From: Synechocystis sp. PCC 6714
GTDB taxonomy: Bacteria > Cyanobacteriota > Cyanobacteriia > Cyanobacteriales > Microcystaceae
NCBI RefSeq assembly: GCF_000478825.2
Contig: NZ_CP007542.1
Location: 2,418,001 to 2,482,000, forward strand
Reading direction: 5' to 3'
Length of the DNA stretch: 64,000 nt
Shown: piece by piece, positions 1,749-43,459 of the stretch
Layout of the letters: every line of letters begins with the position of its first letter
Numbering within the stretch: position 1 is the stretch's first letter
Notes under the pieces: model-generated
Database searches by the model: none
The model's input: only the letters and a program-made list of their open reading frames with translations
What the model was told of the DNA's origin: nothing
Position numbers and translations under genes: made by a program

Positions 1749-1758
1749 GGTGTGCCTT

Positions 1759-2913
1759 ATGTCATATTACGGGTCATCACTCATTTCTTCCGAAGAAGAA
1801 ATACTACAAGAAGTGGAAAATGAATATGAAGAAACATTTGAAAATGATGATTTTTTTCAACTTCCACCAGATGATGTAATTGCTTTCAATGAGCTTAGAT
1901 CTTGTGCTGATATTTATCGTTTATTTACCAAAAAACAACTAAAAATAGAACCTGAATTTCAACGACAAATTATCTGGCCTGACTCTGCAAAAACTCGCTT
2001 TATTGATAGTTTAATGAAACAACTACCAATACCTAGTATGTGTATTAGTCTAGATTATAAGACTGATCAACGTCTAGTGGTCGATGGTTTACAACGCATT
2101 TTTACGATAGTTCAGTTTTTAGGACAAGGACAAAATATCTTAGACTCTAAGTTTGAAAATTGGCGCTTATCTTCTTTGGCAGACATTGATCAACGAATCA
2201 AAGGAAAAACTGTCAACGAAATAAAAAATGAAAATCCACTTTTATTTGAAAGAGTTGAAAACTTAACTCTCCCTATTACAGTAATCCGTTTTGATTCTAG
2301 TAAAGAGTCCCATATGAATTATTTGTACACTATTTTTCATCGTTTAAATACAGGAGGAACTAAGTTAAGCAATCAAGAAATCAGGAACTGTATTTACCAA
2401 GGATTGCTAAATAATTTACTCAAAGAATGTGTTAATTATCAAAATTGGATGAAGTTAAAACTTTTTAAAGAAAAAAATATTAAGCGTCTTGAAGATCAAG
2501 AATTTATTTTGAGATTCTTTGCATTTTTGGATGATCGAGATAGTTATGGGGGAACATTATCTCGCTTTTTAAATAATTATATGGAAAATCATAGGAATCT
2601 TACTTCAGATTTATACTCTGATAAATATAAAACATTTCAAAGGGCAGTTGATATCTTATGCAAAATTCTTGAACAAGATAAACCTTTCGATATTAGTAAG
2701 GTTGTCATAGAAGGTTTACTAATTGGTATTGCTGTTAACTTACCTCTCCTTGAAAAACTAGAAATAAATAAGCTACGCAGTGCCTATGAGAAGCTTAGAC
2801 AATCAGAGGTTTATTTAGCCAAAAATTTACAAGGTGGTTTGCTTAAAACTAATAAAGTTAAAGAACGTTTTGAGAAATCTATCCAAATTTTTGGTGGTTT
2901 ATCAGTTAACTAG
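1759..2913 (+). CDS. Stand-alone DUF262 (GmrSD N-terminal / ParB-like) protein
   Basis: 384 residues from the ATG at 1759. A GTG at 1750 is also in frame, but TAGG at 1747-1750 is better placed as a ribosome site for the ATG. Residues about 67-73 (FQRQIIW) and 108-113 (VDGLQR) match the two signature blocks of DUF262, where the second is usually DGQQR; here the first Q is L. In GmrSD and SspE this domain is the NTP-using sensor half of a modified-DNA restriction enzyme. The DUF1524/HNH nuclease half is absent, so it probably acts with the HEPN protein that begins 1 base after its stop. Codon use is very AT-rich compared with ileS (one 60-base line, 2461-2520, has 13 G/C). Family is well supported; a defence role is inference. 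Confidence 0.85.
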   Translation: MSYYGSSLISSEEEILQEVENEYEETFENDDFFQLPPDDVIAFNELRSCADIYRLFTKKQLKIEPEFQRQIIWPDSAKTRFIDSLMKQLPIPSMCISLDYKTDQRLVVDGLQRIFTIVQFLGQGQNILDSKFENWRLSSLADIDQRIKGKTVNEIKNENPLLFERVENLTLPITVIRFDSSKESHMNYLYTIFHRLNTGGTKLSNQEIRNCIYQGLLNNLLKECVNYQNWMKLKLFKEKNIKRLEDQEFILRFFAFLDDRDSYGGTLSRFLNNYMENHRNLTSDLYSDKYKTFQRAVDILCKILEQDKPFDISKVVIEGLLIGIAVNLPLLEKLEINKLRSAYEKLRQSEVYLAKNLQGGLLKTNKVKERFEKSIQIFGGLSVN

Positions 2914-2914
2914 A

Positions 2915-3457
2915 ATGATAGATACTAGCAATATACAGATAACCTTAAATAATCTTGAGGAATTATACGAAGAGGCAAACGAAAAACGGGAACTTCGTAA
3001 ACTTCAATTTTTTTCGAAATTAGCTATCATTGAAGTCTGTACCTGGATTGAAGAAATACAAGATACTATGCTTATGCAATTAATGCAAAATGAAATAAAC
3101 GATGCAAATAGAAAATATATTGAAAAAATAATTAAAAGGAATTATGGATTTAGATACGATGAAAATTTTAGAAAACTTTTATTAAATATTATTGGAATTA
3201 TTGAATTAGAAAAAATAGAGAGGAAACTAGAAGATGATAAAGGCGCTTTACAGAGATTAAGAACTGAACTTGGAAATTTCAAAAAAAAGCGAGATCAAGC
3301 TGCTCATACTCATATAAAAGAAGTGACGGAACAATATGATGCTGTATCACTAACAAAAAGTCGTTTTGACAACCTTGTGTTTTTATTGAATTTGTTAAGT
3401 CGAGAGTTAATTTTATGGAAAGAAAATACACACATTCGTTACCCCATGCTTAAATAA
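2915..3457 (+). CDS. HEPN-fold protein of the MAE_28990/MAE_18760 type, likely RNase effector
   Basis: 180 residues, all helical in character. The ATG at 2915 lies 1 base after the stop of the DUF262 gene, so the two are translationally linked; a longer frame upstream only overlaps that gene. Residues 126-131 read RDQAAH, an Rx4H motif that is the catalytic signature of HEPN ribonucleases, placed before a final helix as expected. The overall pattern (an early WIEEIQ helix, charged middle, Rx4H, then a hydrophobic helix) resembles the MAE_28990-type HEPN proteins of cyanobacteria, which are known to sit beside DUF262 genes. Very AT-rich. Whether it is a toxin held by its partner or a defence effector cannot be told from sequence alone. 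Confidence 0.7.
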   Translation: MIDTSNIQITLNNLEELYEEANEKRELRKLQFFSKLAIIEVCTWIEEIQDTMLMQLMQNEINDANRKYIEKIIKRNYGFRYDENFRKLLLNIIGIIELEKIERKLEDDKGALQRLRTELGNFKKKRDQAAHTHIKEVTEQYDAVSLTKSRFDNLVFLLNLLSRELILWKENTHIRYPMLK

Positions 3458-18069: not shown

Positions 18070-19383
18070 TTACTGTTCCCCGAAGACGAATTTTAGGGCC
18101 AAATGCCATTGCTGGGGTTGTCTTTCTATCTCGATTTTTTGAATAAACTCCCGAAAGTAAAAACGACGCTCTGTTTCCGACAGGTCTCGCCAAAATTGCG
18201 GCAGGGAAACGGCGGGAATAATTCGTTGCAATTCATCCGGGGGCAGTTGGTCTAAATGTTGTTGTAGCTCCGCTATGTCTTGTTTCAGTTGATAACGGCG
18301 TAGTTGATGGGTGTGGTTGTCCAATACGCCCTGCTCTTGCCACAGGGGCAATTGCCCAAGCAAAGTTTGTTTTTCGGCGATCGCCTTTTGTAGATGTTGA
18401 TACTTTTCCCCCAAAAAAGAAGGAGATAGTTTGGCCACGGCCAAGGGCAATTGCTGACAAATTTGCTCAATTACTTGCTCTAGGCATTGCCCATAGGTGA
18501 TCGCCTTACATTTGGGGCTTGCGGGGCAATGGCGGGGCCGTAGGTAAAGATAGGCATTAGTTTGACGACGGGAAGTGACATGGGCCACCAGCCAAGGAGT
18601 CTGGCAACGGATGCAGGAAATTAAACCGGCCAAGGAACGGGGGGCGCTGGCCGTGCGGGGTGGTAAGGGGGCATTGCGCCGCAGTAGGCGATCAATCTGG
18701 GCCGCTTCGGTGCGGCTCAACAAAGGAGCATGGGTGTTGGCAATGACGGTCTGATTTTGGTAGAGCAAATCCCCCCGATACACGGGATGGGTTAACCAAC
18801 GGCGCCCGGTGGCCACCGCAATTTTTTTGCCATAGTTCTGTTCCAAATAGCGGACGGAACTCCGCAGGCAACCGGAGAGAAGAAATCTTTCAAAAAAAGC
18901 TTTTACCACCGGGGCAGTGGCCCGATCAATCACATACTGGCTGGCACTGCGGCGATAACCATAGGGTGCTTTACCAGGGGGTGGTGTAAGGGCTAAACGG
19001 TTACGGGCGTGACCGCGGCGGAGATGATCTTGTCTTTGTTCCCTTTCCAGAGTCATCCACAGTTGCGACCATTGTTCCCTGGCGATCGCCATTTCTTTTT
19101 TGCCATGGCTATGGTAATCCTGCTCCAAGGCAATGACCGTAATACCCGAATTTTCTAATTGTCCTAGGGTTCGTTCCACAGCGGAAGCGGATGAACCTAA
19201 TTCCTTAAGATTTCTGACCAGACAATAATCGATGCCCTGACTTTGGCAATCCTCCATCAGTTGTCCTAGGGCCCACCTTTGCCCTAGGTCTACATAAACT
19301 TGATCTACCTCCACTCCCCAAATTTGAAGATCCGGTGGTGCATCCAACAGGCGATCGGAGTAAACGTAAGCAACAATACGCAT
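18070..19383 (-). CDS. Degenerate large serine recombinase-like protein
   Basis: 437 residues. Layout fits a large serine recombinase: an N-terminal resolvase-like domain (1-130), a recombinase domain (PPGKAPYGYRR, then VYRGDLLYQNQ near 160-260), a Cys-containing zinc-ribbon-like part (ISCIRCQTPW, then RPRHCPASPKC), and a C-terminal coiled coil. Ser9 in AYVYSDR occupies the nucleophile position, but the usual DRLxR segment is replaced by NLKELGSS, so catalytic Arg residues appear lost. No cargo, inverted repeats or attachment sites are visible nearby and base composition matches the host. It is probably a domesticated protein and not an active integrase. Confidence 0.7.
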   Translation of the reverse strand: MRIVAYVYSDRLLDAPPDLQIWGVEVDQVYVDLGQRWALGQLMEDCQSQGIDYCLVRNLKELGSSASAVERTLGQLENSGITVIALEQDYHSHGKKEMAIAREQWSQLWMTLEREQRQDHLRRGHARNRLALTPPPGKAPYGYRRSASQYVIDRATAPVVKAFFERFLLSGCLRSSVRYLEQNYGKKIAVATGRRWLTHPVYRGDLLYQNQTVIANTHAPLLSRTEAAQIDRLLRRNAPLPPRTASAPRSLAGLISCIRCQTPWLVAHVTSRRQTNAYLYLRPRHCPASPKCKAITYGQCLEQVIEQICQQLPLAVAKLSPSFLGEKYQHLQKAIAEKQTLLGQLPLWQEQGVLDNHTHQLRRYQLKQDIAELQQHLDQLPPDELQRIIPAVSLPQFWRDLSETERRFYFREFIQKIEIERQPQQWHLALKFVFGEQ

Positions 19384-19403: not shown

Positions 19404-19727
19404 CTATAAAAACCGGTCTAGGGCCTGTTTTAGTTCCGCCAACTCCTGCTCAATATTGCCCTCCGCCGCCGCTCTGGTGATGCATTCATTCATATGATCA
19501 TCCAAAATCAATCTAGCCACCCGGTCTAATGCTCCCCGAATGGCCGCCACCTGGATTAGTACCTCTGGGCAAGGACGATTTTCCTGCACCATGGTTTTAA
19601 CTCCCCGAATATGCCCCTCAATGCGGGAGAGGCGATTGACTAATTTTTGCAAGGATTCTTCGCTGTGGACGTGGGGATGGGAGTGGCTGTGGCGGGCGGA
19701 AGGATGGGGAACAGGTTGGGAAGTCAT
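19404..19727 (-). CDS. inrS: Nickel-responsive CsoR/RcnR-family repressor InrS
   Basis: 107 residues, a four-helix-bundle DNA-binding protein of the CsoR/FrmR/RcnR family. The planar Ni-binding ligands of InrS are present at exactly the published positions: His21, Cys53, His78 and Cys82. The His-rich N-terminus (HSHSHPHVH) is also characteristic. InrS represses the nickel exporter gene nrsD and releases it on binding Ni(II). nrsD is not in this window. The gene lies 20 bases downstream of the recombinase-like start region on the same strand, upstream in transcription order. In PCC 6803 it is sll0176 by memory. Confidence 0.95.
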   Translation of the reverse strand: MTSQPVPHPSARHSHSHPHVHSEESLQKLVNRLSRIEGHIRGVKTMVQENRPCPEVLIQVAAIRGALDRVARLILDDHMNECITRAAAEGNIEQELAELKQALDRFL

Positions 19728-19845: not shown

Positions 19846-20100
19846 TCAGCCCAATAGCTCATCGTAGTCTTCGTGTGTACCAATCCAAAACCACACATAG
19901 CCGTCATCAGTTTCCACCGACAATGCTCGATAATCCAAGGTGACTCGAACAGACCATAATTCTCCCACTTTCTTGAAGTGAAGTGAAGGATGGCGAGGAT
20001 TTTGAATTAATAATTGATAGGCTTTATCTGCCCGTCTCTGAATTTCCTCTGGCAAATGCCTGTAACAAAACCAGAAGTCAGAGTTAGTGTGATGCTTCAA
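19846..20100 (-). CDS. RelE/ParE-superfamily toxin
   Basis: 84 residues. The pattern matches RelE-like toxins: helix LPEEIQRRADKAYQLL, strand SLHFKKVG-LWSVRV, DYRALS, then VWFWIGTHEDYDELL with the conserved late His-x-x-Tyr. These toxins cut mRNA in the ribosome A site or poison gyrase. The ATG overlaps the stop of the upstream antitoxin gene by 4 bases, a classic coupled toxin-antitoxin arrangement with the antitoxin first. Confidence 0.85.
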   Translation of the reverse strand: MKHHTNSDFWFCYRHLPEEIQRRADKAYQLLIQNPRHPSLHFKKVGELWSVRVTLDYRALSVETDDGYVWFWIGTHEDYDELLG

Positions 20101-20297
20101 AGTGTTTTTGTCCGGCCAGCATGATGATCTGCCAATGCCTTTTCTGCTAAAGCTTTAAGCTTACCGGACTTAGAGTCTTGCTCAATTTGACGATCCCAGT
20201 TCTGCCAATCGTACTCATGGAACCATTCTCGAAATTTGGCGAAATCCGAGGGACTTAGCTGTTTAATTTGCGTTTCAATTTGCTCCAAGTTTCCCAT
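20097..20297 (-). CDS. Antitoxin of the RelE-type module
   Basis: 66 residues, first gene of the pair. The N-terminal segment LEQIETQIKQLSPSDFAKFREWFHEYDWQNWD is typical of small cyanobacterial antitoxins that partner with RelE/ParE proteins. The C-terminal half (SKSGKLKALAEKALADHHAGRTKTL) is polar and likely disordered until it wraps the toxin. Overlaps the toxin gene by 4 bases. It would normally repress its own promoter, located between 20298 and 20344. Confidence 0.82.
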   Translation of the reverse strand: MGNLEQIETQIKQLSPSDFAKFREWFHEYDWQNWDRQIEQDSKSGKLKALAEKALADHHAGRTKTL

Positions 20298-38936: not shown

Positions 38937-41531
38937 ATGAATATTGAAGCAAAGCTAAGTCAAGCCCGTTCCTGGTTGGATGAGTTGGGCAATGCCATTT
39001 CTGATCTGGTGGGGGTTGCGCCAGAAGTGTTTGAGGATGAAAAGCTTAAGCAGGATTTGGCAGATTTTCGCAGGGCCTACGATCAGGCGGTGCATGATTT
39101 GGCTAATCCCAGTTTACGGATTGCGATGATCGGCACAACGTCTTCGGGCAAGTCAACGATTGTTAACGCCTTGATTGGCCGACGAATTGCGCCCATTGAG
39201 GCGGGGGAGATGAGCGGCGGAGTTTTACGTATTAAGCATGGTCAGGGTAGTCATTTAAAGATTGAGGAGACTGAAGGAGCGGCCTGGGAAACGGGGGAAT
39301 GGTCTGGTTTGAGCGATGAGGAAATTTATGACCGCATTCAACGCACAATGCATACTTACCATGAGGTGAGGAGAAAAGCAGACTATATTGCGCCCCAAAT
39401 TGAAGTAAGGCTACCGATTTTGCCTGCTTGTGATCGGGAATTATCAGGACTACCGGAAGGGTTAGCGATTGAGTTTGTGGATTTACCGGGTTTAAAGTCT
39501 ATCCAAGATCGGGGAAATCTTCAGGTGATTCAATCCCTTGTCGGTAAGGCTTTTTGTCTAGTTGCACTGGATTATGGACAGGTTGATGAAGTGCATCGTC
39601 AGAAATTGTTGGGAGAATTAAAACAGATTATTGATTATTTTGACGGCAAAACAGACTCAATGATTTTTATTTTAAATCGGGTTGATAATCGTAAATCAGA
39701 TGATATTCCCTTAGAAAGTCGAATTACTAAGCTAAGCCAAGAAATCAAAGAAAATCTAAAACTTTCAGAATATCCTGACATCATTCCCTTTAGTGCGAAC
39801 ATCTTGTATCAAGCTCAATGTGCTTGGGGGATTAATAACCTTAAAGGGTCATCTTTGGTTGCTCAGACTGAACGATTAAAACGATTAAGAGCAATGTTTT
39901 CTGATTGTTCTAGTTTGATAACAAAAGAAATTGAGAAAAGTAAAAAACCTTCAACACCTTTACCAGTAAAGGGCACTTTTAAAAAAATTCTCTTGCAAAA
40001 TCAGGATTTAAAATCGTGGTTTCGTTACATTGAAGATCGGGTTAGGGAAGAAAAAAAGATTACTGACGAAATGATGCAGACATTGGTGAAGTATGCTTTA
40101 CTTTGGAGTGGCGGGAATAGTTTATGGAGTTGTATTCGGTCAAGAATTAATAATTCTTTTGAGGAATTGGTAGTCAATCCGATATTAATGGATGTTTATG
40201 TCAGTAGTGATGCTGTGATTGAGAGATTAAATTTAAAGCTTGAAGCTACTAAAGGAAGCAATGAAGAAATTGAACTAAAAATTCAGCAAATAAAAGAAAA
40301 GCGTCCTACATTGAAAGAACAATTGCAAGAAAAAAAGATTTTTTTTATCAATGAAATTAATGATTTTATTGAAGATTTAATTAAGATTGGGCTTTCATAT
40401 AGTAATCCAGCTCTTGCATCTATCAACAATGACGATGACCTTAGTATATTTACTACTCTTAGAAATGAAAGTTCAAATGGCAAACTTTTAATGGAAATGA
40501 ATGTCGCAATTAAATATATTCAGTCAGAGCTAAATAAAGAATTGATAACGAAATTATTGGATGCTTTTGAATCTAACAAACCATCCTATGATTTAGAAGA
40601 TGAGCTTAATAATTTTCTTAGCCCACCTCTCGCCAAAAGCCTTGCTCGCTCTTACGATACTGTGAGCAGACTAATTGGTGATTATAAGCTAGAAGATGAT
40701 TTAATGATAAAATCTATCCCCATAACTGATCAGCAAGCCATAGAAAAGTTAAGAGAAGATGAACATACAATCTTGATGTTATATGAAAATATGGATCAAG
40801 CCATTAGGGAAAAAACAGAATTTTTAATTCAGGCTCAGGAACCCAAACTACTAGGTTTTGTTGAGAAGCTTTTTGATAACTACATCCAGGAACTATGTTC
40901 AATTTTTAATGAAATCGAACTTCCTATTAAACAGAGTATCTTAGCAGACTGGAAAAATAAAACTAAAAATAGTAGCCAATTTTCTTCATTGCCTGAAGAT
41001 ATATTTAATATTTCAGAACCAATATTTGTAGAATCTAAAGACAAGAAAAAAGAATTTGCTGGCACTGAATCATATTATGTTGATGTGCAGAAAACTCGCT
41101 ATGAGCAATATACAGAGACCTACAAGAAAAAATTCCTATTCTTTTTTAAGAAAGACGCTACCCGCACCAGCACTCGTCCAGTTAAATATACTGAAAAGGA
41201 AGAGAAAGAGCGTAAAATTTTTAAAGATGTAGAATACCGTAAATTTGCCTTCCCTAAACCTATTGTGATGGCCAGGCAATGGTCAGATGCTGTTGAGTCA
41301 GACAAAATGGCATTATTAGACGTTTTAAAAATTTGGATGTCTCAATATGCCGATCAATCTATTGAACAATTTGAAATCATTAGCAATGAAGTTTTAGATT
41401 TTGCTGAAATAAGCTTAGACGAAACACAAAATTCACTTAATTTGAATTTAGAACAACAACAAAAATTATTAGAAATTATTCAACCTAAATTTCATCAGTT
41501 ACTTGAATTAAGAAAGGAGATTTTACGATAA
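38937..41531 (+). CDS. Dynamin-like GTPase, first gene of a three-gene operon
   Basis: 864 residues. G1/P-loop GTTSSGKST at residues 67-74, a possible G2 Thr/Ser segment EMSGGVLR near 91, G3 DLPG at 182-185 and G4 NRVD at 247-250 define a dynamin-superfamily GTPase. The rest is long helical stalk with coiled coils and a late patch KKKFLFFFKKD that could touch membrane. The first 600 bases are host-like in base composition, the rest much more AT-rich (27 versus 16 G/C in two sampled 60-base lines). Bacterial relatives remodel membranes or act in anti-phage defence (for example LeoA of Eleos). Stop overlaps the next start by 1 base. Confidence 0.85.
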   Translation: MNIEAKLSQARSWLDELGNAISDLVGVAPEVFEDEKLKQDLADFRRAYDQAVHDLANPSLRIAMIGTTSSGKSTIVNALIGRRIAPIEAGEMSGGVLRIKHGQGSHLKIEETEGAAWETGEWSGLSDEEIYDRIQRTMHTYHEVRRKADYIAPQIEVRLPILPACDRELSGLPEGLAIEFVDLPGLKSIQDRGNLQVIQSLVGKAFCLVALDYGQVDEVHRQKLLGELKQIIDYFDGKTDSMIFILNRVDNRKSDDIPLESRITKLSQEIKENLKLSEYPDIIPFSANILYQAQCAWGINNLKGSSLVAQTERLKRLRAMFSDCSSLITKEIEKSKKPSTPLPVKGTFKKILLQNQDLKSWFRYIEDRVREEKKITDEMMQTLVKYALLWSGGNSLWSCIRSRINNSFEELVVNPILMDVYVSSDAVIERLNLKLEATKGSNEEIELKIQQIKEKRPTLKEQLQEKKIFFINEINDFIEDLIKIGLSYSNPALASINNDDDLSIFTTLRNESSNGKLLMEMNVAIKYIQSELNKELITKLLDAFESNKPSYDLEDELNNFLSPPLAKSLARSYDTVSRLIGDYKLEDDLMIKSIPITDQQAIEKLREDEHTILMLYENMDQAIREKTEFLIQAQEPKLLGFVEKLFDNYIQELCSIFNEIELPIKQSILADWKNKTKNSSQFSSLPEDIFNISEPIFVESKDKKKEFAGTESYYVDVQKTRYEQYTETYKKKFLFFFKKDATRTSTRPVKYTEKEEKERKIFKDVEYRKFAFPKPIVMARQWSDAVESDKMALLDVLKIWMSQYADQSIEQFEIISNEVLDFAEISLDETQNSLNLNLEQQQKLLEIIQPKFHQLLELRKEILR

Positions 41532-42103
41532 TGAAAATCACGCTTTTTGGATATGAAATAATATCAATAGAAAATCAACCAAAATCTGACAATAAAAATT
41601 ACGAATCCACCGATGACGACCAAGAAAAAATATTTAAAAACAGAAGAACTGATAATTTATTTAGAGAAAGTCAAGACAGTGAAATTCAAATTTCCTCTGT
41701 ATCACAGCCACAAAAAATAGTAAATCCCAAAACATTAATTCTCGCAATTTATCCAGACAAAAATCTAAATTTATTTCAGCAACTAACTGTTCCATTAGCT
41801 AGATCTGTATGTGAAAAACTCTATGAATCTACTCAATATCTCCGTATAGACAATAATTTGTTTTTCAAATCTAAGTCAAATAAAATTCAAGATTTTAAAG
41901 TTCAAAAAGGAGAAGAGTGTGATGACGATATTCACTTAATCAGGATATACCTCAACGACAATGATGAACGATTTAATCAACGAGTTAATCAGGTTGATCG
42001 AATTAGAGCTTTTCGTGAATTACCTAATTTAGTTGACGATATTCAGGTATCTCCTCGTCTAAGGATAGAAGCTGGAAATTTATTTAATCTTTACCATCGC
42101 TAA
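41531..42103 (+). CDS. Unknown protein, second gene of the dynamin-like operon
   Basis: 190 residues. Its ATG overlaps the GTPase stop (TAATG), with GGAGA 9 to 14 bases upstream, so translation is coupled. The first 65 residues are polar and probably disordered (many N, D, S, E). From residue 75 a compact domain begins (NPKTLILAIYPDKNLNLFQQLTVPLARSVCEKLY) that ends in a charged helix. One Cys pair region (EECDDDIHL) is notable but not a motif. It has no recognised family. Position suggests an adaptor for the GTPase or the third protein. Confidence 0.75.
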   Translation: MKITLFGYEIISIENQPKSDNKNYESTDDDQEKIFKNRRTDNLFRESQDSEIQISSVSQPQKIVNPKTLILAIYPDKNLNLFQQLTVPLARSVCEKLYESTQYLRIDNNLFFKSKSNKIQDFKVQKGEECDDDIHLIRIYLNDNDERFNQRVNQVDRIRAFRELPNLVDDIQVSPRLRIEAGNLFNLYHR

Positions 42104-42112
42104 GAAAGTATT

Positions 42113-43459
42113 ATGATTATCAACACTGATTTATTACTTAATAATCCAGAGATCATTAAAGGTTTAGTATCTGGAGAAATGACTCGCTATGGTAGTGTAA
42201 TTCGCTGGACTAAAGGCGTTGGCCCTCACGCTGGTAATATTGTTAAACATTTGGCAGAATCACCGTCTTTGACGAATAAAATGATGTTAGTCGGAGTTGA
42301 TCCTGCTTTAGGTAGTGGAGCGATTGCTGCCGATATTGTTGGGCATGGAATGAATTATCATAAATTGCTGGGAATTGACAAAAAAATTACGGGTATTAGT
42401 GACAATTTAGTCAAAGTAATGGGATTAAGTCAGCTTTCAGCAGGAGCTAGCATTTTAAATTTAGGAGTAAGTGCAATCGGTTTTGCTTACATGGGCTATA
42501 AATTACACCAAATGCAAAAGTCTATCAATGTTTTACAATCTACAATGACCGATGGATTTAATCGTGTTGAAGCTAATCTAAACAGTTTGAAGTATAAAAT
42601 TGATTCTGGCTTTAGCATTATGATTCAAGGACTAAAGCATCTTGATAATCGTCTCGATAACATTTCTGGCCAATTAGCTTACCTCTACTTAATCACCCAG
42701 GACAATCGTAAAAAGCAAGAGAAGTTAGCTGCCGCAGTTGCTCATCTTCACCAAACAAATTTAATTCGAGAGATTTCATTATTACAAGCAGAGCTAAATG
42801 ATAGAAGTCGCTTTCCTGATGAATCTCCAAGGCAAGCAATCAAAACCGCTTCCCACGTTAGATTATTTCTGAGCAGTGAAGCCCAAAAAATAACGCCAGA
42901 AGTAGAAGCAGAATTGCTTTTAAATAGTGATGTTGCCATTCAAGGTTGGGTTGTAGCCACAGCGACAGAAGCCAATTTATTGATGGAGATTGGGCAATTT
43001 CAGGAAGCAAAATCTCTTCTAAGTGATGAAGTTTCAAAATTCCGACAGATTGCCGAGCGTTGGGCATTCGCTTTGTTAAATAATGAAAGCCCAAAAATCA
43101 ATACCATTTATCGGTTTGACTCACCGTTATTTAGCGATTATGTGTCACAAGAAAGAGTACAAAGAGTTTTGTCAATTTACCCATCTGAGCAATTTTTAGA
43201 TCCTGCCAAGGTTCAATGGTTAAAAAGTAGTGTTAATGCAGAATATAAAACTTCCTATGCTTCCGAACGCTACAATCAAGCTTGGCAATATAAACAACTG
43301 GCGATCGCCGAATATTTGGATACCCTCAGCGAATTATTAGCTCGATTAGATACCTTGCAAGACTTTGCCCAACTGTGCCAAGACCGGGGCGTAAAAAGTA
43401 GTAAAGAGTTGCTTCCCGATAGAGATGCGGAACTAGGACTTTATCTATTACCAGGATAG
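42113..43459 (+). CDS. Coiled-coil protein with a hydrophobic segment, third gene of the dynamin-like operon
   Basis: 448 residues starting 9 bases after the previous stop. The stretch around residues 40-130 is rich in Gly, Ala, Ile and Val; LSAGASILNLGVSAIGFAYMGY (about 115-135) could insert in a membrane. A heptad coiled coil follows (MTDGFNRVEANLNSLKYKIDSGFSIMIQGLKHLDNRLDNI), then a helical C-terminal half. The layout resembles pore-forming or membrane-anchored effectors, but no family is recognised. The 3' end contains a HIP1 site, so the module has been resident for some time or recombined with host DNA. Confidence 0.75.
   Translation: MIINTDLLLNNPEIIKGLVSGEMTRYGSVIRWTKGVGPHAGNIVKHLAESPSLTNKMMLVGVDPALGSGAIAADIVGHGMNYHKLLGIDKKITGISDNLVKVMGLSQLSAGASILNLGVSAIGFAYMGYKLHQMQKSINVLQSTMTDGFNRVEANLNSLKYKIDSGFSIMIQGLKHLDNRLDNISGQLAYLYLITQDNRKKQEKLAAAVAHLHQTNLIREISLLQAELNDRSRFPDESPRQAIKTASHVRLFLSSEAQKITPEVEAELLLNSDVAIQGWVVATATEANLLMEIGQFQEAKSLLSDEVSKFRQIAERWAFALLNNESPKINTIYRFDSPLFSDYVSQERVQRVLSIYPSEQFLDPAKVQWLKSSVNAEYKTSYASERYNQAWQYKQLAIAEYLDTLSELLARLDTLQDFAQLCQDRGVKSSKELLPDRDAELGLYLLPG

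Follow-up and report, generated by a model that had tools for sequence, protein, structure and literature searches.

The gene under study lies on the minus strand of the window, which is the whole stretch of 64,000 nucleotides that was analysed, on a 3,485,441-base contig of Synechocystis sp. PCC 6714. The features assigned within the gene and immediately upstream of it were as follows.

18070 to 19383, minus strand: large serine recombinase homologue with its catalytic residues replaced (437 residues; whole coding sequence including the stop codon)
19099 to 19383, minus strand: resolvase-fold N-terminal domain, residues 1 to 95 (AF2 model, match to the Tn3 resolvase 5cy2_A, residue counts)
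19354 to 19362, minus strand: codons 8 to 10 (Tyr-Ser-Asp), aligned to Arg8-Val9-Ser10 (orthologue alignment, named loci)
19192 to 19206, minus strand: codons 60 to 64 (Lys-Glu-Leu-Gly-Ser), aligned to Asp67-Arg68-x-x-Arg71 (alignments)
18994 to 19098, minus strand: linker and long helix, residues 96 to 130, the helix spanning 98 to 130 in the model (AF2 model)
18664 to 18993, minus strand: recombinase (DNA-binding) domain, residues 131 to 240, the best conserved part (Pfam, AF2 model, structure match, column identity)
18496 to 18663, minus strand: zinc ribbon, residues 241 to 296, with Cys257, Cys260, Cys286 and Cys292 (cysteines kept in orthologues)
18238 to 18495, minus strand: coiled coil, residues 297 to 382 (AF2 model, structure matches)
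18073 to 18237, minus strand: C-terminal segment, residues 383 to 437 (AF2 model, hhalign)
19404 to 19727, minus strand: CsoR/RcnR-family metal sensor gene (PF02583, E value of 3.3e-28), 20 bp upstream on the same strand

The preliminary description of this DNA had recognised a serine-recombinase-like open reading frame with its domain order retained, and both points were borne out. The protein matched the Pfam Recombinase domain (PF07508, E value of 2.8e-8) and scored slightly under the cut-off for Resolvase (PF00239, 22.9 bits versus 23.3), the zinc ribbon also falling under its own cut-off. An AF2 model built from 60 orthologues (mean pLDDT 89.3) comprised a resolvase-fold domain, a long helix, the recombinase domain, the zinc ribbon, the coiled coil and the C-terminal segment, which is the domain order of large serine recombinases as judged by Pfam, AF2, Foldseek and VIA-align. 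Residues 119 to 435 of the model matched the A118 integrase on DNA (4kis_B; Z 15.5, 278 residues, 4.8 Å), and the large serine integrases of SP-beta, Bxb1 and phiC31 were also matched by Foldseek and VIA-align. The structure prediction that had been proposed for the catalytic domain gave a resolvase fold, the first 95 residues matching the Tn3 and gamma-delta resolvases (5cy2_A, Z 13.7, 92 residues, 1.9 Å). Against the NCBIfam model for XisF (NF041201) the protein scored 113.6 bits versus a curated cut-off of 375, and it is therefore not an XisF equivalog.

The catalytic site was examined in a MAFFT alignment of 97 orthologues (one per genome; the N-terminal domain is missing in two) together with 10 XisF-family proteins (eight over the NCBIfam cut-off and two under it). 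In the XisF-family rows, Arg8, Ser10 and Arg68 were present in 10/10 and Arg71 in 9/10. Among the 97 orthologues, the Arg8 column held Tyr in 91 and Arg in none, while the Ser10 column held Asp in 66, Asn in 15 and Glu in 7 (88 for the three) and Ser in only 2. At Arg68 the residue was Glu in 76 and Asp in 14 (90 together), with Arg in 1, and at Arg71 it was Asp in 64, Glu in 14 and Asn in 9 (87 together), with Arg in none. The Ser39-Gly40 loop was lost, with gaps at Ser39 in 91/97 and at Gly40 in 89/97, and two residues of the old site were still present, Asp36 in 95/97 and Arg45 in 91/97. The pattern was sharper in the named loci, which are the best 80 of 475 relatives and hence skewed to close ones: Tyr8 and an Asp, Asn or Glu at position 10 were found in 80/80, Glu at Arg68 in 79/80, and Asp, Asn or Glu at Arg71 in 78/80. 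The window protein carries Tyr8, Ser9, Asp10, Lys60, Glu61 and Ser64, and so lacks the catalytic Ser10 and Arg8, Arg68 and Arg71 of an active large serine recombinase.

The preliminary description had noted that the DRLxR block reads NLKELGSS, with loss of the catalytic Arg. This was confirmed, and as judged from the alignment the predicted catalytic loss is wider than that block, taking in Arg8, Ser10, Arg68, Arg71 and the Ser39-Gly40 loop across the orthologues. Its statement that Ser9 is retained did not hold for the catalytic position, since Ser9 falls in the non-catalytic Val9 column (Ser in 32 and Thr in 40 of the 97 orthologues, other letters in the rest) and Asp10 occupies the Ser10 column. 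This register rests on MAFFT and on structure alignments that start at residue 1 on both sides, VIA-align and Foldseek having supplied no residue pairs; the hhalign alignment to XisF begins at residue 24, which places the upstream register outside its range. A one-residue gap could shift Ser9 onto the catalytic column, but this would leave Arg8 missing and a column in which Ser is not conserved. The uniformity of the replacements, mostly to acidic residues, looks like selection rather than decay, and with mostly acidic residues now at the Ser10, Arg68 and Arg71 positions and Tyr at that of Arg8 the protein should neither cut nor rejoin DNA.

Matches at an E value of 1e-10 or lower were found in 118 of the 386 genomes of the phylum sample, 98 of these being among the 105 genomes of the window's order and 20 in other members of its class (order and class as assigned by the kinship column). 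A single match was present in 114 of the 118, including one copy in each of the five Synechocystis genomes searched; the sole other Resolvase-domain match in the window's own genome was a short resolvase on a different contig. The exceptions were G041, G115 and G197, in which one copy was in pieces (across two contigs in G197), and G113, in which a second N-terminal piece of 86 residues (G113:C1:3060018-3060275) lay some 16 kb away from the complete gene. In the close genomes the gene was matched in 50/58, one of the 50 (G023) being a relic with 10 stops, and the 8 genomes without a match ranged from 1.4 to 4.8 Mb. The genome with the relic (locus L165) is 2.8 Mb, and in a larger genome of the same genus, G016, the gene is full length. 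A first scan of the named collection with the single protein as query gave no match; a second with the alignment as query gave 475 stretches encoding a relative at an E value of 1e-3 or lower, orthology not being implied for all. The nearest named relative among the best 80 of these was that of Synechocystis salina LEGE 00031 (82%).

In f36, a family of small genomes, neither the phylum survey nor a profile search revealed an orthologue. That search, made for diverged orthologues in 43 f36 genomes and one each of f39 and f34, matched 8/45 at an E value of 0.001 or lower (best 3.6e-10), all in f36, and these partial matches were taken as other recombinases. Small genomes with the code g83 in f36 (1.6 to 1.7 Mb) repeatedly showed one weak XisF-family match (E values of about 1e-8 to 1e-11), and the profile of the window's family matched none of them at 0.001 or lower. 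The absence of the gene from 7 of the 105 order genomes and from f36 suggests that it is dispensable to some cyanobacteria.

In a quick tree of the 97 orthologues and XisF-type proteins, for which the program warned of long branches meeting, all orthologue rows lay on one side of the branch from the XisF-type proteins (SH-aLRT 100). The 13 family labels required 15 changes, against a minimum of 12 and a shuffled mean of 47.5, with f1, f9, f35 and f37 each split. The survey of orthologues and dN/dS that had been proposed as a check also favoured a host gene, the ratio being 0.070 to 0.252 over 19 pairs in which every sequence was used only once. The gene was thus found to have the single copy, vertical descent and purifying selection of a domesticated host gene, the tree part of this carrying the long-branch warnings. 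As judged from these genome comparisons, it is an old, mostly single-copy cyanobacterial gene.

Selection was unevenly spread along the protein. The dN/dS ratio was lower after the N-terminal domain in 17/19 pairs, and mean pairwise column identity was 0.44 for residues 1 to 95, 0.36 for 96 to 130, 0.67 for 131 to 240, 0.55 for 241 to 296, 0.45 for 297 to 382 and 0.55 for 383 to 437. The zinc-ribbon residues Cys257, Cys260, Cys286 and Cys292 were kept in 60, 60, 60 and 59 of 60 aligned orthologues, respectively. In G002, G005 and G006 the match (52 to 55% identity) started only at about residue 116 to 122, and no N-terminal match was found by tblastn (E value of 0.01 or lower) or by eye in the 700 bases upstream. 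These three genomes did not form one clade in a tree of the C-terminal part, where their label changed 3 times, 2 of the changes being forced by starred branches, and two of the three had long branches. Together, the conservation pattern, the dN/dS ratios and the domain loss point to the DNA-binding half as the part kept by selection. With Asp36 and Arg45 retained, the N-terminal domain may still have some use.

The preliminary description had also reported that no mobile-element edges were visible and that the composition was host-like. Consistent with this, no repeat pair resembling element ends was seen around the gene, and its G+C content resembled that of the surroundings. The stretch was collinear in two further genomes of the genus (G003 and G004; loci L076 and L077) and had other neighbours in G001 and G002. 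Genomic location varied between genera, so the suggested check of a conserved position had a negative outcome; this is one half of what had been said to speak for active mobility, and it was seen without element edges and without the other half, close relatives with an intact catalytic Arg. The plasmid collection gave one match (22% identity) and the phage collection ten (20 to 32%), all distant recombinases. Current mobility was rejected, since only distant recombinases were found in those collections, no element-like repeats were seen, and the stretch is collinear in three genomes.

The neighbouring nickel sensor gene named in the preliminary description was found as the CsoR/RcnR-family gene at 19404 to 19727, for which we take InrS to be the name. 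The adjacency proved lineage specific, being present in 3/5 genomes of the genus (G003, G004 and that of the window); among 60 loci, CsoR genes did not form a cluster of at least four. A link to nickel sensing was set aside on these grounds. Adjoining the sensor gene on the minus strand, at 19846 to 20297, are a gene for a ParE-like toxin (PF24732, E value of 4.6e-11), also present in L076 and L077, and a short upstream open reading frame, likely forming a toxin-antitoxin pair. Elsewhere in the window, a low-G+C pair at 1750 to 3457 (plus strand) matched the PADLOC models PD-T4-2_A (E value of 1.4e-149) and PD-T4-2_B (7.2e-54), an anti-phage defence pair. A low-G+C run of three genes at 38937 to 43459 (plus strand) encodes a dynamin-like GTPase (PF00350, E value of 3.5e-15; weak LeoA and LeoBC matches), an unmatched 190-residue protein and a third product weakly matching JukB (1.7e-7), and is a possible defence island.

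Upstream of the gene, a motif search over the 60 loci found no operator or other DNA site. Several 12-mers were common to 4 to 5 loci, compared with a maximum of 2 to 3 in 30 shuffled sets; the commonest were read as the coding starts of two genes because 20 coding bases had been included, and the remaining 12-mers occurred in 3 to 4 loci. A promoter and terminator scan did no better than shuffles. Downstream, on the opposite strand, 10 of the 60 loci (L065, L071, L084, L089, L097, L102 to L104, L106 and L107) carry a gene for a protein of 330 to 640 residues with a conserved membrane-like start (LPFILDVALGLIFIYLILSLLASEIQEL).

The commonest cluster of neighbours among the 60 loci was a VOC-fold (glyoxalase-fold) protein at 25 loci (at four of them the gene encodes a glyoxalase I and not the short VOC protein), and next came a membrane protein and a glycosyltransferase-like protein at 10 loci each. 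The glyoxalase-I gene adjoining in L061 and L091 to L093 was taken as chance. The VOC protein matched Glyoxalase (PF00903, E value of 1.4e-10), with His8 and His51 in 62/62 and Glu115 in all 60 that align there, residues which we presume to resemble the metal triad of FosA and glyoxalase proteins. Of the 98 genomes carrying both genes, 54 had the VOC gene on the same strand and no more than 5 kb upstream (51 of them within 700 bp), and this adjacency spanned 13 family codes, two of them outside the order. Among the named loci (best 80 of 475 relatives) it was upstream in 62/80, and at four loci the two genes overlapped by 4 bases. By raw counts that ignore kinship, 20 genomes had the recombinase homologue alone and 5 the VOC gene alone; the five genomes of the window's genus had no VOC match at an E value of 1e-12 or lower. 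The adjacency suggests that the gene was probably cotranscribed with the small VOC protein ancestrally.

We consider it likely that the protein is a domesticated, non-cutting integrase that serves its host as a DNA-binding protein, whether regulatory or DNA bridging, much as the preliminary description had proposed. The single copy, the tree that broadly follows families, purifying selection, the replaced residues and the domain loss all agree with this; that the protein binds a specific DNA site, dimerises or bridges through its coiled coil, and regulates is what we infer from them. Weighing against it are the upstream motif search that gave no site, the genomes that lack the gene, the retained Asp36 and Arg45, the split labels and long-branch warnings of the tree and, for the VOC link, the 44 of the 98 genomes in which the VOC gene lies outside the 5 kb upstream. 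A large serine recombinase, of the integrase or XisF type, would have been captured by a cyanobacterial ancestor and would then have lost its chemistry. The N-terminal domain would keep the resolvase fold around a scissile-phosphate pocket now mostly of acidic residues and Tyr, which would prevent cutting and rejoining. With the recombinase domain, zinc ribbon and coiled coil under selection, a fixed DNA sequence is most likely still recognised, and the coiled coil may dimerise the protein or bridge two sites, as would suit a transcriptional or architectural role. The small VOC protein would be the probable ancestral cotranscription partner, the gene following the CsoR-family sensor gene instead in three genomes of the window's genus. 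More tentatively, a fuller version may be proposed, in which the chemistry was stripped in the ancestor of the order and its class-level relatives to give a dedicated bridging or regulatory protein that reads one conserved site through its recombinase domain and zinc ribbon, pairs or loops host DNA with its coiled coil, and has the VOC protein as its operon partner.

Of the other roles considered, one ties the protein chiefly to the VOC protein, as regulator of its gene or partner of the enzyme, rather than to general DNA binding. The adjacency, the overlaps and the co-occurrence (98 genomes with both genes) speak for it. However, the co-occurrence counts ignore phylogeny, and 20 of the 118 genomes with the gene, including all five of the window's genus, have no VOC match at an E value of 1e-12 or lower; we regard such a role as unlikely. 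It is likewise improbable that the protein acts on active integrases as a decoy or partner that does not itself cut, occupying attachment-like sites or mixing with XisF-type recombinases to control or block excision or integration. Its homology to XisF extends over most of its length (hhalign probability 100, E value of 1.5e-43, besides the NCBIfam score), and of the 15 genomes in which XisF scored over the cut-off, 13 have the gene as well. On the other side, 105 of the 118 gene-bearing genomes had no XisF scoring that high; with at most about four candidates scored per genome, some XisF proteins may have been missed. A recombinase domain this conserved would also be unexpected if mobile elements, which change, set the target.

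A protein that is still a recombinase, through a rebuilt active site or under special conditions, would account for the resolvase fold and the conserved Asp36 and Arg45. It is hard to reconcile with the acidic or Asn residues at the nucleophile position, with the missing Arg8 and Arg71, with the absence of the whole catalytic domain from three genomes or with the lack of visible element ends, and we consider it very improbable. Less probable still is a decaying relic without function. Although the copy in G023 is a relic and those in G115 and G197 are split over frames, dN/dS was well below 1 in 19/19 pairs and the gene is widely retained, which refutes decay for the genomes tested.

The known activity of large serine recombinases is the cutting and joining of DNA by which elements move. 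If the preferred reading of a domesticated, non-cutting DNA-binding protein is correct, the half of these enzymes that reads DNA is open to recruitment by a host as a protein for DNA binding, and cyanobacteria would gain an overlooked candidate regulator that is old, order-wide and apparently non-cutting. A literature search, in which subscription journals were thinly covered, gave no report of large serine recombinase relatives with replaced catalytic residues, a silence that hints weakly at the novelty of such members. In the part seen of a review of host genes recruited from mobile elements (PMC8987985), the serine-recombinase examples, such as Hin, act as recombinases; the window's family resembles its cases in being an element protein in host use, and a non-catalytic serine recombinase did not appear in that part. 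Among individual systems, the small serine resolvases (Tn3, gamma-delta) have a similar N-terminal fold, whereas the window protein differs from them in its catalytic residues and DNA-binding part. The large serine integrases A118, SP-beta YokA, Bxb1 and phiC31 share with it the recombinase domain, zinc ribbon and coiled-coil fold, but in the window's family the catalytic Ser and Arg are replaced, no element is seen, and there is mostly one copy per genome across the order. XisF, which excises the fdxN element in heterocyst formers, has the same domain order and a similar length, the profile comparison covering 383 columns. The ten aligned XisF-family proteins keep the catalytic residues that are replaced in the window's family, apart from Arg71 in one, and, with at most about four candidates scored per genome, XisF was over its cut-off in at least 15 of the 386 genomes compared with 118 for the window's family.
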